Shown here in pieces: positions 7,040 to 18,309 of a DNA stretch of 64,000 bases. Numbering within the stretch: the first letter of the stretch is position 1; the number at the start of each line of letters is the position of its first letter. This DNA comes from an uncultured Bacteroidota bacterium (GTDB lineage Bacteria; Bacteroidota; Bacteroidia; UKL13-3), in NCBI GenBank assembly GCA_903910445.1, contig CAIVZR010000037.1, forward strand, positions 19,936-83,935, read 5' to 3'. Below the pieces are notes generated by a model. It was not told the origin of the DNA. It did not search any database and was given only the letters and a program-made list of their open reading frames with translations. The position numbers were made by a program, and so were the translations under genes.

Positions 7040-10000
7040 TTATTTCATTAGTAAATCTACTACGTGTTTATTTGAATGTGAATTTCCTTGGCCATCAATA
7101 ATTGAAATCAGGAATATATAATGTCCTGTATTGGCAAGTTCTCCTTCCATCATTCTACCATCCCATCGGTAATAATTCTTCGTTCCTCCAATATCATTTT
7201 TCGCCAAAGTATTAACTAATCTTCCCGCTAAATCATAGATACTGATATTGATTGCTTGAGAACCTGTTGGCAAGGCAATAGTAAAATTTATTTCATCGTC
7301 AACGCCATCATTGTCGGGTGTGAAATAGTCCTTATTGAAATGCACCCAGTTATTGGGAGCAATACTGCTATTGTATTTTGAATTCACTAAACCCGGCGTT
7401 CCATAACCAATATTAGAAGAAGCTGAACTCCAATTTAGTGGCGAAGTTCCAATTCGATCCATGCTAATTCTCTCTAAGCTGATACCTTCTGTATTATTAA
7501 TAAATGGATGATGCCATTTTGCTGAATAGATAGCTGAGTCAATAGCAATAGTTGAATTGATAAATTGCAAAATCAATATGCCTGAATCATCATCTAGTGA
7601 TTTCCAATTTGAAGCTTGAATAATGTTCTCATCTTTGCGATGAGAATAATCTTTTTCAAGCGCACTTTTATTATTGCAAATCACCAAATATGTTTTTGGA
7701 AGAAATTGCCACTCAATATCCGATGCATCTATCGTTGCATGTAATAAACCTTCCTTATCAAAACAGGTGATTGACAATTCATGTAAGTCAAATATCTTAT
7801 CAGTATTATTATAAAACTCAATAAACTCACTGCCATTGGAATAAGCATCAAATACAATTTCATTAATCGAAATATCATTTTCAATGGGTATACTAGGCAA
7901 CCCAAAGTAAATTGTAGCAGGTTGAATTAGATGCCCACTGCAGTCGCTTAAGCCACGTATATTCATACTGTATATAAATCCATGACCCCATGTAGAGGAT
8001 TTTACTATTAGGTAAATTTCATTGAGATGCTGTTCATAATAGCCAATTTCGAAGCCACCTACACTAGCATTTGTAAATTGAAAAATGGCACTATCGAGCG
8101 AATTGATATCTATCGATTTATTGAATAGGAAAATAACAGAAGTATCAGCTAGGGTATAAGCCCGAATTAGCTTTAAAGGCAACGTATCGATAAGGTTTGC
8201 TTGCACCGAATTGATTGCGCTGGGAGTGCCTCCTTTACTATCGATACTGAATTGCCAATTATTTTGGGTGATGCAAGGCAGTTTTTCGTCAGCCATTTCA
8301 AGGCTCCAACCTCCTTTAACTTTTGGATTATTCGGGAATGCTTCCATTTCATAATGTGCCTGATGAACAATCGCGGAGTTAGAATCAAGTAGCCATAAAT
8401 TATCTGCTTCTTGATTTAAATAAGGGAAAGAATTAATGCCAATAGCGGGAATTTTTAATGCCATAAAAATGGGTAATTTTAATGCAGAAACAAGAACGAT
8501 ATGACTATCGTTTTTTAAAATATAATTAGGTAGGACTGCGGTACTATTTCCATCAGTTATTTTCATCCCTTTTAAATTTATTGTGTATCCAGAACGATTG
8601 CTTAATTCAATATATTGACATCCGGGCCAATAATTATTACCTGTTGCATTGATGAATAATTCAGTAATGATAACACCATTAAATCGACAGCTAAAAGCCT
8701 TGTCATATATGCCTTGAAAACTAACAGGAATCATTTTTTTACCACTGCAATTTTTCGAATCGGAAAAATTGAAACTATATAATACTTTATTTGTTAATGG
8801 CGAAAACTCAAGAAGGATACTATCCGCACTTTTATTCAAAATTGATACTTGTTTAATGAATTGAGAAGATGCTGTTGCTATAGTGGACACCATTGTACTA
8901 TCCATAGTACTATTGAAAATCAAAAGTGCGCTTGAATCATTGAATATTTGAAAACTTATTAACCTTGGAGAGATGGTATCCGCAACAGCATTATAGATAG
9001 AATTAGGCATTCCAGGTGTTCCTCCAAGCTTTAAATTTTCGGATGCACTCCAATTGTATTTTCCCTTGCAACGCAAGCGGGGGTTAATAAGCTCAAGTGC
9101 CCATCCACCTTCGCTTTTAAGGGGGTTATTGTACCAGCTTATCTGGTAGTTTACTTCGTCAATTACACTGCCATCTATCCTCAATAATTTTAATTGATCG
9201 GCGTCATTATTCAAACTTGGGAAATTGCTTACAACAACACTGTTTCCATAGGTAGCATATATATTAGATGACGATGTAGTACTAACAACTACAAAACTAT
9301 CAGGTTGTAAAATGTAGTTGGGTAAAATTGCGGTGCTACTTCCATCTGTAATTGAAAAATCTTGTAAGTTGATTTCATCTGAAGAAGTATTCCATAGTTC
9401 AATAAATTCATAATTAGGTAATCCAATCGATGGTGATGGGTCGGCAAAAATTTCATTGATTACAAGATCTCCATTTTGCACAACACGGAATTTGAAATTG
9501 GCGGTATCAAGCCATCTTTGATTGCCAATTAAATCTTTCTGATTTCTTACCTCAAGAAATTGCAAAGTATTGGGCTCGAAAGGGACGCTAAAAGAGAGTG
9601 TGATTTGAGTTCGATTATTAGAATTAAGAGTTGAAATAATGGGGTTAATTTTTTTATTCAACAAATAATTAGAACAATTTATAGCCATCATCGAATCAAG
9701 AGGCTCATTATATTGTAATCGACAATGAATACTATCTAATACCAAAATACTATCAAGAATAGGTGAAGTGGTATCAGGTGTAATGGTTTGTATTACAAAA
9801 TCATCAAAGAAAAATTTCTGTAAGTTGGAACTGGAGTAATGAATTGCCATTCCAAAATATGGCAAAAAGCTCCAAAATTTGGAAGGATAGTTGTTTTCAT
9901 GCACCGTACCTTCTAAGACAAAATTATTTCCTGTTCCAGAGGCATCATCATAAAGTTCATACAGGTTGTTTAAATCCCGACTAACTCGAATTTTAAAGCT

Positions 10001-10447
10001 ATTAGAGCTCGTGCTGGCCAATCTTCCATCAATTCCATCGATCAGCTTGGTAATAGCCCCTGTATCCTTTCTATACAGGCTTATCTCATCATTTGTATTT
10101 CCAATTCTTACAAAAATACCTGAATTCAGGCCCATTAAGTTGGCCGAATCACTTATTAAGAAGATATCCGTATAATTTACTGACGATGTGGCAAACTTGA
10201 GGTTGACATAAAATTCCCAAACCACATTTTGTGACAGGTTATTGCGGGTGCATAATTGCGCGCTGCTGCTCGTAGGAGGCGCATTGCTATTGAGTTGTTG
10301 CCCAACAATCTTCCAGTAGGAAGTATCGCCAATCCAAGTTGGGTTAGTCGTGAAATTGCCATCGCTAAACGATTCGTGAAGTTGGGCATTGGACGAAATT
10401 CTGACTAATCCGATGAATATCAGAACCAAGATACTGTTTTTAAGCAT
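7040..10447 (-). CDS. Large secreted multi-lamin-tail-domain protein
   Basis: 1135 residues with an N-terminal signal peptide ending near SSNA. After a lectin/glucanase-like N-terminal region come three lamin-tail domains at about 325-440, 590-700 and 850-970 (openings INEIFADPSP, ITELFINATG and INEIVFDAYS), separated by SbsA-type Ig-like segments (for example after DTTSPIL). The end (about 1045-1135) contains YFTPDNDGVDD and looks like the FlgD-like or gliding-associated C-terminal domains of Bacteroidota surface proteins, so T9SS export is likely. No catalytic motif was seen; an adhesive or structural role is inferred. Confidence 0.8.
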   Translation of the reverse strand: MLKNSILVLIFIGLVRISSNAQLHESFSDGNFTTNPTWIGDTSYWKIVGQQLNSNAPPTSSSAQLCTRNNLSQNVVWEFYVNLKFATSSVNYTDIFLISDSANLMGLNSGIFVRIGNTNDEISLYRKDTGAITKLIDGIDGRLASTSSNSFKIRVSRDLNNLYELYDDASGTGNNFVLEGTVHENNYPSKFWSFLPYFGMAIHYSSSNLQKFFFDDFVIQTITPDTTSPILDSILVLDSIHCRLQYNEPLDSMMAINCSNYLLNKKINPIISTLNSNNRTQITLSFSVPFEPNTLQFLEVRNQKDLIGNQRWLDTANFKFRVVQNGDLVINEIFADPSPSIGLPNYEFIELWNTSSDEINLQDFSITDGSSTAILPNYILQPDSFVVVSTTSSSNIYATYGNSVVVSNFPSLNNDADQLKLLRIDGSVIDEVNYQISWYNNPLKSEGGWALELINPRLRCKGKYNWSASENLKLGGTPGMPNSIYNAVADTISPRLISFQIFNDSSALLIFNSTMDSTMVSTIATASSQFIKQVSILNKSADSILLEFSPLTNKVLYSFNFSDSKNCSGKKMIPVSFQGIYDKAFSCRFNGVIITELFINATGNNYWPGCQYIELSNRSGYTINLKGMKITDGNSTAVLPNYILKNDSHIVLVSALKLPIFMALKIPAIGINSFPYLNQEADNLWLLDSNSAIVHQAHYEMEAFPNNPKVKGGWSLEMADEKLPCITQNNWQFSIDSKGGTPSAINSVQANLIDTLPLKLIRAYTLADTSVIFLFNKSIDINSLDSAIFQFTNASVGGFEIGYYEQHLNEIYLIVKSSTWGHGFIYSMNIRGLSDCSGHLIQPATIYFGLPSIPIENDISINEIVFDAYSNGSEFIEFYNNTDKIFDLHELSITCFDKEGLLHATIDASDIEWQFLPKTYLVICNNKSALEKDYSHRKDENIIQASNWKSLDDDSGILILQFINSTIAIDSAIYSAKWHHPFINNTEGISLERISMDRIGTSPLNWSSASSNIGYGTPGLVNSKYNSSIAPNNWVHFNKDYFTPDNDGVDDEINFTIALPTGSQAINISIYDLAGRLVNTLAKNDIGGTKNYYRWDGRMMEGELANTGHYIFLISIIDGQGNSHSNKHVVDLLMK

Positions 10448-10559
10448 TTATATTACGAAGATAAATAGCGGTAACTAAATCTGAAAACAGAAAATGCAAA
10501 AGCTAATTAAATTCAGAAAAAGCTATTGAAAGACAAGGGATAAAAATTTTGTAAATTAT

Positions 10560-10576
10560 TTGGCACGGAACTTGCA
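10560..10576 (+). promoter_or_regulatory. Sigma-54 (RpoN) promoter, perfect consensus
   Basis: TTGGCACGGAACTTGCA matches YTGGCACGRNNNTTGCW at every defined position, with correct spacing between the GG (-24) and GC (-12) elements. The expected start site is near 10587. No plus-strand protein gene follows; hairpins and T-runs do. Confidence 0.75.
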
Positions 10577-10587
10577 AAATCGACTTT

Positions 10588-10690
10588 GAATGTGAGGTCT
10601 CTGTTTGATTTTCATTAATCAAACGTCTCCATTCACTTTTTTTTCATTAGTTTTTGTTTCATTAAAGGGGAATTGACTTTCCCCTTTTTT
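10588..10690 (+). ncRNA. Candidate sigma-54-dependent small RNA
   Basis: Begins at the start site predicted from the sigma-54 promoter. First structure, 10588-10634: GAATG pairs with CATTC, GAGGT with GTCTC (with wobble pairs), and GTTTGATT with AATCAAAC around a TTCATT loop, followed by eight T at 10637-10644. Second structure, 10664-10687: AAAGGGGAA pairs with TTCCCCTTT, followed by more T. Both hairpin/T-run pairs face the plus strand, while the genes on both sides are on the minus strand, so no protein gene explains them. The RNA could be about 57 or about 103 nt long, depending on which hairpin terminates. No coding frame is evident. Confidence 0.5.
10664..10690 (+). terminator. Rho-independent terminator, plus-strand orientation
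   Basis: Nine-base-pair stem AAAGGGGAA/TTCCCCTTT with a 6-base loop, followed by a T-rich tail. The minus-strand side of the stem has no U-rich tail, so it does not look like the terminator of the gene ending at 10694. Confidence 0.65.
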
Positions 10691-10693
10691 GTT

Positions 10694-11533
10694 TTATAAC
10701 TTCATCAAAACTAAAGCCTCCTTATTATCTTTCAATAACTCTTTAAGCTCCATCATGGTTTGCTTGTTATTATTGTTATTCTTTAGTAAACGGTATGCCA
10801 TGGAATAAAATCTGTTTTCGATGCAGTATTCGATACTTATTGCCAAAATTGATGCTGATAATGGTTCTTTGGCCTGGCAAATTTTCCTTAGATTCTCTAA
10901 CGCATCGGTTTTGGTCATTCCTACTAAATACCATTGAAGCACCCGATCAGAACCCACTTTTACTGTAGTATATTCGTTCAGTATCAAAAGATTAGCTGGC
11001 AGAATTAACAGTGTATCTTGGTAAACAATTATTGAGTAGTTGCCAATGCTTATTTTGACTGGATATTGGGTTCTTGCCAAGTCGATATTGAACGCAAAGG
11101 TATCCTCAGTTATAATAGCACTATCCCAAGGAAAGACAGTACCCTCGCCCCGATAAACGGCCCCCTTGGCCTTTTGTGTATTTGTATTTGAATTCGCTGA
11201 AAATGTTTGTTCTACGAAAAACTTCACGGCCTTTTGCATTTCCTTAGTATTGTTCTGAGTCCCCGATTGAATAGAGTTTTTAATTAAAAATTCCCCATTT
11301 TGTTTTACTTCAAAAATCTGGTATTTTGAATCAAAAATAATGAGCGCTGAATTACTTACACATTTGATTTTTGTATTGGAATTGACGGAGTCTTTTGGTC
11401 GCAATGTTTCCCACTGCTTTGACTTCGAGGAGAAATACTGAATATTACCTACCGTTTTAAAAACAGTATAGTTGGCCTGAGTAAATGCATTCAAATACCC
11501 TAGAAGCAATAGAATCAATAAATTATTCTTCAT
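10694..11533 (-). CDS. Secreted FecR-like protein paired with CHASE2 protein
   Basis: 279 residues from the ATG at 11533 (a TTG one codon earlier is less likely). Signal peptide of about 19 residues. The stretch at about 20-80, with QWETLRPKDS and later short beta-rich segments, resembles a FecR domain; the match is weak. The C-terminal third is helical and Lys/Asn-rich, ending in NNNNNK and KELLKDNKEAL. Its start overlaps the end of the CHASE2 gene by 11 bases, so both are made from one transcript and probably act together in the periplasm. Function unknown. Confidence 0.6.
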   Translation of the reverse strand: MKNNLLILLLLGYLNAFTQANYTVFKTVGNIQYFSSKSKQWETLRPKDSVNSNTKIKCVSNSALIIFDSKYQIFEVKQNGEFLIKNSIQSGTQNNTKEMQKAVKFFVEQTFSANSNTNTQKAKGAVYRGEGTVFPWDSAIITEDTFAFNIDLARTQYPVKISIGNYSIIVYQDTLLILPANLLILNEYTTVKVGSDRVLQWYLVGMTKTDALENLRKICQAKEPLSASILAISIEYCIENRFYSMAYRLLKNNNNNKQTMMELKELLKDNKEALVLMKL

Positions 11534-12755
11534 CAATAAAAATGCTTTTAAAACTATATACTTTACTCAAATAATGAATGATGATTCGGTAAAACCCCAC
11601 CAGTGGTTCGGCCAAGGCAATGGCCGCAATCATTTCACCAATATTCCATTTGATGCCAAATGAAGAGAAAAAGTAAATAGCCAAGATTAAAATTATTAAC
11701 CCAAAGAAAAGTTGCAATAAGATTTCTACTACATTTTGCCACACATGTTCCTGGCTTTCCGAGTAGAGGTACAGGAGGAGAAATAGTGCGATGAATAGTA
11801 TACAGGCAATAATTTGTAAGATGCGGGAAGGGGCTTGTATTTTGAAATTATTCAGATACCCCGAAATAATATTCGCATGTATATAAATCCCATACATATC
11901 GGGCAGCGATTTGCCTGCATAATTTTCATTTAATGGTGTGAAATGCTTATCATCAATAACGGTCATTCCGTTTTCACTTCCACAAAAGCCAATAAGTACA
12001 ATTTTTCCTTTTAGTAGATTTAAATCCACACTTGCATTTAATATCTCTTGTGTTGACAGGGTAGTGTAATGCTCGGAATAAGCCTCGTAGGGTATGATAC
12101 TTTCAACACTTGTGTTTAATTCCTTGTAAACATTTGATTTTTCTGAATTTTTAAATTTGATAAAATTATTAAATGCGAAAGAAGAAATTTTTCTTTCTCT
12201 GAAATTTTGAATCTTATAATAGCTTCGAATGGTTTGATTTTCATCACCAATAAAATTTACATAACCGAGGTTATCATCATCACCAAGTTTAGGGATGGCA
12301 TGAGGTTGAATACTATAAATATTGTTTCCAAGTGTGGAATCGGCATAGCAGGCAACCACAATTTGCTTCCCAAAACATTGAATTGCACTATCGAGAAGTT
12401 TATCGGTGGCACTGTCCTTATCAGTATTGAAAATAATATCCAAGCCGAGTACTGCAGGGGCATATTCCTTAATTTTCAGAAGGGTATTCGCGATGGTTTC
12501 TCGGTCGGCATCCCCGATATTTACAACAACTATTTGCTGGTCTTGTATATTTTCACCTGCAACATTTTTAATTTGGGAATAATAAATATCACTCCAGTCA
12601 AAGTCTTTAAAAGCATTGCTGGCTGGCTGAAACCAATTGGAATTGAATGGCAGTAACTGAATACCTAATAGTACAAAGTATATGAATGAAGCACAGAGTA
12701 GGGCGTCTCTTAGCAGCACTTTTACGAAACTCCAATTTTTTTTCTTCACATCCAT
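11523..12755 (-). CDS. CHASE2 sensory-domain membrane protein without output domain
   Basis: 410 residues. A membrane segment at about 15-35, then an extracytoplasmic CHASE2 domain (about 60-300; the fragments VVNIGDADR, LGLDIIFN, LKGKIVLIGFCG and YGIYIHANIISGYL are typical), then three C-terminal membrane segments at about 310-400. CHASE2 proteins usually end in a cyclase, kinase or GGDEF domain; here only about 20 cytoplasmic residues follow. Signal output must go through the overlapping FecR-like protein or another partner (inference). Confidence 0.78.
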   Translation of the reverse strand: MDVKKKNWSFVKVLLRDALLCASFIYFVLLGIQLLPFNSNWFQPASNAFKDFDWSDIYYSQIKNVAGENIQDQQIVVVNIGDADRETIANTLLKIKEYAPAVLGLDIIFNTDKDSATDKLLDSAIQCFGKQIVVACYADSTLGNNIYSIQPHAIPKLGDDDNLGYVNFIGDENQTIRSYYKIQNFRERKISSFAFNNFIKFKNSEKSNVYKELNTSVESIIPYEAYSEHYTTLSTQEILNASVDLNLLKGKIVLIGFCGSENGMTVIDDKHFTPLNENYAGKSLPDMYGIYIHANIISGYLNNFKIQAPSRILQIIACILFIALFLLLYLYSESQEHVWQNVVEILLQLFFGLIILILAIYFFSSFGIKWNIGEMIAAIALAEPLVGFYRIIIHYLSKVYSFKSIFIDEE

Positions 12756-18292: not shown

Positions 18293-18309
18293 AACAATTA
18301 TCGTGCCAA
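18293..18309 (-). promoter_or_regulatory. Sigma-54-like promoter, one mismatch
   Basis: On the minus strand TTGGCACGATAATTGTT fits YTGGCACGRNNNTTGCW except that the C of the -12 GC is T. Spacing is correct. The predicted start near 18281 would give a leader of about 50 bases before the ATG at 18229. It is one of two such elements seen in the window. Confidence 0.4.

Follow-up and report, generated by a model that had tools for sequence, protein, structure and literature searches.

The window, by which we mean the whole analysed stretch of 64,000 nucleotides from an uncultured Bacteroidota bacterium, contains a plus-strand sigma-54-type promoter sequence between two minus-strand genes, followed by two hairpins separated by a U-rich stretch, hereafter the linker (Table 1). 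A preliminary description made from the sequence alone had proposed this arrangement, including the orientation of both flanking genes, and it was borne out in each part: (i) the claimed -24/-12 element is a full match, TTGGCACGGAACTTGCA; (ii) the start predicted near 10587, i.e., 12 nt past the C (10575) of the -12 GC, meets the 18-pair hairpin; (iii) this hairpin is followed by AC and then eight T (10637-10644); and (iv) the second hairpin (10664-10687) is trailed by T as far as 10690. The latter, being GC-rich and followed by a U run, has the makeup of an intrinsic terminator, with which the folds of the sister copies described below agree.

Table 1. Coordinates and strands of the features in the window.
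Feature	Position	Strand	Conservation or support
1135-aa protein, lamin-tail domains, type IX secretion signal, divergent neighbour	7040..10447	-	
Predicted sigma-54 promoter, -24 TTGGCA, -12 TTGC	10560..10576	+	Invariant in 4 genomes, spacer variable
Predicted small RNA, ~104 nt	10587..10690	+	Conserved block from +1/+2; fold z -5.5
5' hairpin, 18 pairs in this genome	10588..10634	+	36/49 columns invariant
U-rich linker, mostly unpaired, two CAU-ended modules	10636..10663	+	28/28 columns invariant, 4 genomes
Intrinsic terminator hairpin and U tail	10664..10690	+	25/28 columns invariant
280-aa protein, no Pfam match, convergent neighbour	10694..11536	-	
Possible sigma-54-type site TTGGCACGATAATTGTT, separate from the RNA gene	18293..18309	-	Kept in relatives

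The predicted fold is far more stable than expected for its composition (-31.9 kcal/mol over 114 nt, against -15.7 with an sd of 2.9 for shuffled sequences, none of 200 being as good). A coding reading was rejected: the sole plus-strand ORF of at least 20 aa inside the RNA has 23 aa and a TTG start, for which G002, one of the relatives introduced below, has CTG. Sigma-54 promoters follow the consensus TGGCAYR-N4-TTGCW, in which GG and GC are invariant, and the window promoter conforms to it throughout, the invariant bases included. With up to two mismatches, this pattern occurs five times in the window, one match being exact, against 6.9 expected; a promoter match alone is weak evidence in so AT-rich a sequence, and the case therefore rests on relatives.

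Five genomes of the genus are compared below, namely that of the window (G000) and four others (G001 to G004). The strict pattern TTGGCAYRN4TTGCW is matched eight times among them, against one match for the reversed-pattern control, and five of the eight stand before an RNA with a linker of this kind. The second strict match in G000 (L090, contig C60, 4959-4975, minus strand) lies in a gap about 230 bases upstream of a gene that by eye is histidine-kinase-like. The minus-strand site listed last in Table 1 lies some 65-80 bases upstream of a gene for a 287-aa lipoprotein-like protein, with a TAnnTTTG box in between; upstream of this protein's orthologues, TGGCAYR-N4-TTG is kept in G001, G002 and G003.

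Conservation and a second locus

When positions 10500-10720 were searched in 58 related genomes, matches at E <= 0.001 were found in nine. The element itself is present in G000 to G003 and G004 has sister copies only; by eye, the matches in the other four genomes are short (27-69 bases) and lack the RNA's parts. Identity to the query is 93% over nearly all of its length in G003, and 91% and 87% over the RNA part in G002 and G001, respectively. The preliminary description had made conservation of the -24/-12 bases and the hairpins a test: G001, G002 and G003 all keep the -24/-12 boxes, the linker and the terminator, and to a somewhat lesser degree the first hairpin. In the four-way comparison, the -24 (6/6) and -12 (4/4) positions are invariant against none of six in the spacer; only 2/11 columns are invariant from -11 to -1, and of the flanking columns 22/134 are unchanged on the upstream side and 23/60 on the downstream side. 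Because G000 and G003 are closely related, these counts represent fewer than four independent lines; leaving out G003 hardly alters them. On these alignments, the conservation of promoter and RNA among the relatives is not due to chance.

The preliminary description had allowed an RNA of about 57 or 103 nt, and here conservation distinguishes between the two, favouring a product of about 104 nt over the shorter one. Were the eight T to end transcription, so that the linker and second hairpin merely formed a backup terminator, the first hairpin with its AC and T run would account for a complete RNA of about 57 nt; however, the proportion of invariant columns is higher in the linker and terminator than in that hairpin (Table 1), and a second sigma-54-type locus consists of linker and terminator only, making this reading improbable. 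Partial termination at the eight T may nonetheless occur.

This second locus emerged from a looser pattern applied to 62 genomes, which yielded one further copy each in G000, G001, G002 and G003; the reversed-pattern control gave eight matches, and three matches outside the genus were discarded, having by eye neither promoter nor terminator. The predicted RNA, of about 55 nt, follows the promoter TTGGCAYAATRTTTGY and has no 5' hairpin, beginning with the linker itself 12 nt past the -12 position. Across the four genomes, the invariant positions number 6/6 in the -24 box, 4/6 in the spacer and 3/4 in the -12 box (TTGT in three genomes, TTGC in one), falling to 3/11 from -11 to -1 and 35/103 upstream, and rise to 33/33 in the linker, exactly from the predicted +1. 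In G000, G001 and G002, for which gene lists were read, the RNA adjoins a gene that we take to be mnmH, a name given from its sequence rather than by family search; the linker is invariant despite an identity of merely ~61-71% among the neighbouring MnmH proteins of these three genomes. G004 (99% complete) keeps the mnmH neighbourhood, the RNA site there is empty, and no sigma-54-type copy was found in that genome. All four genomes carry TATTCTNNNCAT ahead of the mnmH-side RNA (L131, L134, L136, L137), some 20-35 bases before its -24 box; by eye, this could be an activator site.

The second locus also bears on whether the window RNA is a cis-antisense RNA, or a 3'-end element, of the convergent gene. 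The RNA and the stop codon of that gene are 4 nt apart, as such a role would suggest; yet the RNA's sigma-54-type sister faces another gene, mnmH, and no orthologue of the 280-aa protein was detected (tblastn, 1e-6) on the G002 contig, where the RNA is present. We regard such a role as very improbable.

A sister family behind two promoter types

The core pattern TTTTTCATNAGTTTTTNTTN{0,1}CATT occurs at 17 places in five of 64 family genomes, all of them of this genus, and the reversed control gave none. Four of these places are the orthologues at the window locus and 13 are sisters, all with TAnnTTTG immediately before the RNA; in 12 of the 13, the box is followed by four bases and then the GTTAA of the hairpin, while in the remaining one (L016) a different hairpin starts right after the box. 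TAnnTTTG is the -7 box of the Bacteroidota sigma-A promoter (PMC7366714, PMC9723704). The linker is identical in all 13 sigma-A-type sisters.

Together with the second locus, this gives 21 copies in five genomes, each with a mostly unpaired U-rich linker followed by a terminator (12 of the 21 were folded). The linker is invariant within each class, and that of the window can be aligned with those of the other 20 copies. Intact copies, given as sigma-A-type plus sigma-54-type, number 3+2 in G000 and in G003, 2+2 in G001 and in G002, and 3+0 in G004; the window RNA is thus one of five intact sisters in its genome, two with sigma-54-type and three with sigma-A-type promoter sequences. A further sigma-A-type copy in G000 (L047, contig C34, 405-479) is degenerate: its core is altered, the U tail is missing, and it is probably an RNA pseudogene.

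Searches of 64 family genomes with the core pattern and with covariance model R1 each found the family in this genus alone. Model R2, run over 395 genomes of the class, added two matches that by eye resemble ordinary terminators; because the R1 and R2 searches were strictly filtered, distant relatives may be missed. Scans of genome contigs returned 30 stretches, of which 13 were of the genus type and 17 unrelated by eye, and all four stretches from viral contigs were likewise unrelated.

In eight of the folded copies two hairpins flank the linker (z -3.1 to -6.1), and in the four second-locus copies the linker is followed by the terminator hairpin. Apart from two weakly paired bases near its 3' end, the linker is unpaired in the minimum-energy folds. 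At the window locus, the hairpin displays no two-sided changes across the four sequences, and 5 of 108 cells of the whole structure are unpaired. The sigma-A-type class has three pairs with a two-sided change, each in one sequence. Shifting the structure by -1 column gives as high a score (four pairs), although in the unshifted register 95.3% of the cells are paired against 33-68% in slid versions. The hairpins are supported more by energy than by covariation, which is weak and does not settle the structure.

A chance -24/-12 match beside a repeat element or fortuitous hairpins, with no RNA gene, would fit the number of promoter-like matches that the window gives once mismatches are tolerated. 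Against this stand the orthologous positions, conservation setting in at the predicted start at two separate loci, and two different promoter types each placed at the RNA start; such coincidence is extremely improbable. By the same comparative evidence, a sigma-54-type RNA gene family very probably exists, the window element most likely being a small regulatory RNA gene with predicted transcription by sigma-54. Its shared linker and terminator place it in a family of paralogues with promoters of two types, a relationship that the preliminary description had missed.

Control and proposed working of the linker

The control machinery on which a sigma-54 promoter would depend, and for which the preliminary description had called, is encoded in the genome. 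G000 has one rpoN, which is present in 61 of 62 family genomes (the one with no match is 70% complete), and eight matches to the activator domain PF00158, three of them strong. Two of these three activators have receivers and one does not, and one of the receiver-bearing proteins adjoins a FIST sensor protein. Among eight upstream regions, no specific shared enhancer word or dyad was found. The sigma-54-type promoters of Flavobacterium psychrophilum serve chaperones, envelope stress, gliding, exported proteins and at least one putative RNA (PMC9723704), and it is on account of these roles that we guess at an envelope- or folding-stress signal here.

The linker is presumed to be the active part of the RNA. 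In every class it contains a pair of CAU-ended modules at a spacing of 13-15 nt. We lean, with moderate confidence, toward a family of sibling sRNAs fed by both sigma factors, the linker of which would act as a seed that pairs with mRNA start regions and represses them. The sigma-A-type sisters would supply a basal pool of linker RNA, which the two sigma-54-type sisters would enlarge once an activator ATPase fires. Pairing with translation-start regions would then block translation: the CAU of each module complements AUG, and the preceding U run could pair with A-rich first codons. The genome's RRM-domain protein would probably assist. One such protein is found in four of the five genus genomes, including G000 (the genome with no match is 89% complete).

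Pairing energies were computed for 308 start regions, called with a simple rule for ORFs within 434 kb, about one-eighth of one genome, with shuffled, reversed and internal-AUG controls. At the 308 starts, the window linker had only a small advantage over 60 shuffled linkers (-8.02 versus -7.19, sd 0.39), and the sigma-A (-7.27 versus -6.90, sd 0.44) and second sigma-54 linkers (-8.97 versus -8.49, sd 0.45) hardly any over theirs. Internal AUG windows paired better than starts with all three (-9.46, -8.45 and -10.37, respectively). Across the five whole genomes, AAAACTN{0,1}ATGAAAA has 28 matches, of which 21 are the RNAs themselves and the other seven include no gene start; the reversed pattern likewise has seven. 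At the 308 starts, words complementary to the linker were confined to the generic ATGAAAAAAA (three) and one partial match. The candidate anti-start-codon targets were accordingly set aside, their energies being unspecific and exact complements no more frequent than reversed ones; FopS-like complementarity to start regions did not exceed chance. One gene start (L067, about 2315-2338), judged by eye to be that of a lipoprotein-like gene in an unrelated Cytophagales record, fits the linker complement; it was the sole fitting start seen, and the linker differs from it at one free place of the pattern.

As the target tests gave no support, confidence in a pairing sRNA stays moderate and a protein-binding alternative is retained. 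Here, the RNA would still be driven by sigma-54, and its linker would be a decoy soaking up an RNA-binding protein, e.g., the RRM protein. The model is CrcZ of Pseudomonas, a decoy that sequesters Crc/Hfq. A linker that is invariant in every class and built of two repeated modules would suit this role, as would the want of an exact mRNA partner and the RRM protein in most of the genus genomes compared; however, two modules per RNA are few for a decoy, and the hairpins and copy number resemble those of pairing RNAs. We consider a decoy possible, though unlikely.

Within the pairing model, a counterpart of the enterobacterial envelope-stress sRNAs can be imagined by analogy: protein-folding or envelope stress would trigger a sigma-54-driven flood of RNA, the tandem anti-start modules of which would silence the AUG-AAA-rich mRNAs of exported proteins, atop a constitutive sigma-A pool with the same seed. 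Both this role and its trigger are speculative and rather doubtful.

Comparison with known systems

Sister sRNAs and sigma-54-driven sRNAs are each already known. The Qrr sRNAs of Vibrio are several sisters that depend on sigma-54 and on Hfq; the present family resembles them in having several sisters under predicted sigma-54 control and differs in being split between two promoter types. GlmY and GlmZ are likewise homologous RNAs with sigma-54 control, which act on glmS through RapZ in a phylum other than Bacteroidota (PMC3162934); a title in the reference list of that source indicates a sigma-70 promoter for GlmY as well.

Neither the whole window (4227 families) nor the three loci gave an Rfam match at gathering score, weak matches lying outside the RNA only, and no description of such a family was found in the open-access literature. 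The RNA's claimed novelty thus stands for the family but not for the kind of promoter: in the same phylum, F. psychrophilum Rfp36 is a putative regulatory RNA with a sigma-54-type (SM4) promoter (PMC9723704). The cited passages on Rfp36 describe no two-promoter sister family such as that seen here.

A close likeness is to FopS and GibS of Bacteroides, which act at start codons (PMC7366714, PMC11697453). FopS of Bacteroides has 14 sisters with an unpaired seed followed by a terminator, blocks SusC start regions and is bound by an RRM-domain protein (PMC11697453). In common with the present family are multiple sister copies in Bacteroidota, an unpaired conserved stretch with a terminator, and the TAnnTTTG promoter type, as in our ordinary-promoter sisters (PMC11697453, PMC7366714). 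Our family has no Rfam match, although Rfam release 15 may not include FopS. FopS promoters are described as sigma-ABfr and motif PM2 (PMC11697453), in contrast to the two sigma-54-type sisters here.

What is new, as far as searched, is one linker behind both sigma-54-type and housekeeping-type promoters in Bacteroidota. If true, a single sRNA linker would be under both housekeeping and signal-gated sigma factors in a phylum where sRNAs are still sparsely mapped, and one could then test why bacteria retain sister sRNAs. That paralogues might be served by different sigma factors was raised as a possibility by the FopS authors (PMC11697453). G004 provides a natural comparison, with ordinary-promoter sisters and no sigma-54-type sister found.
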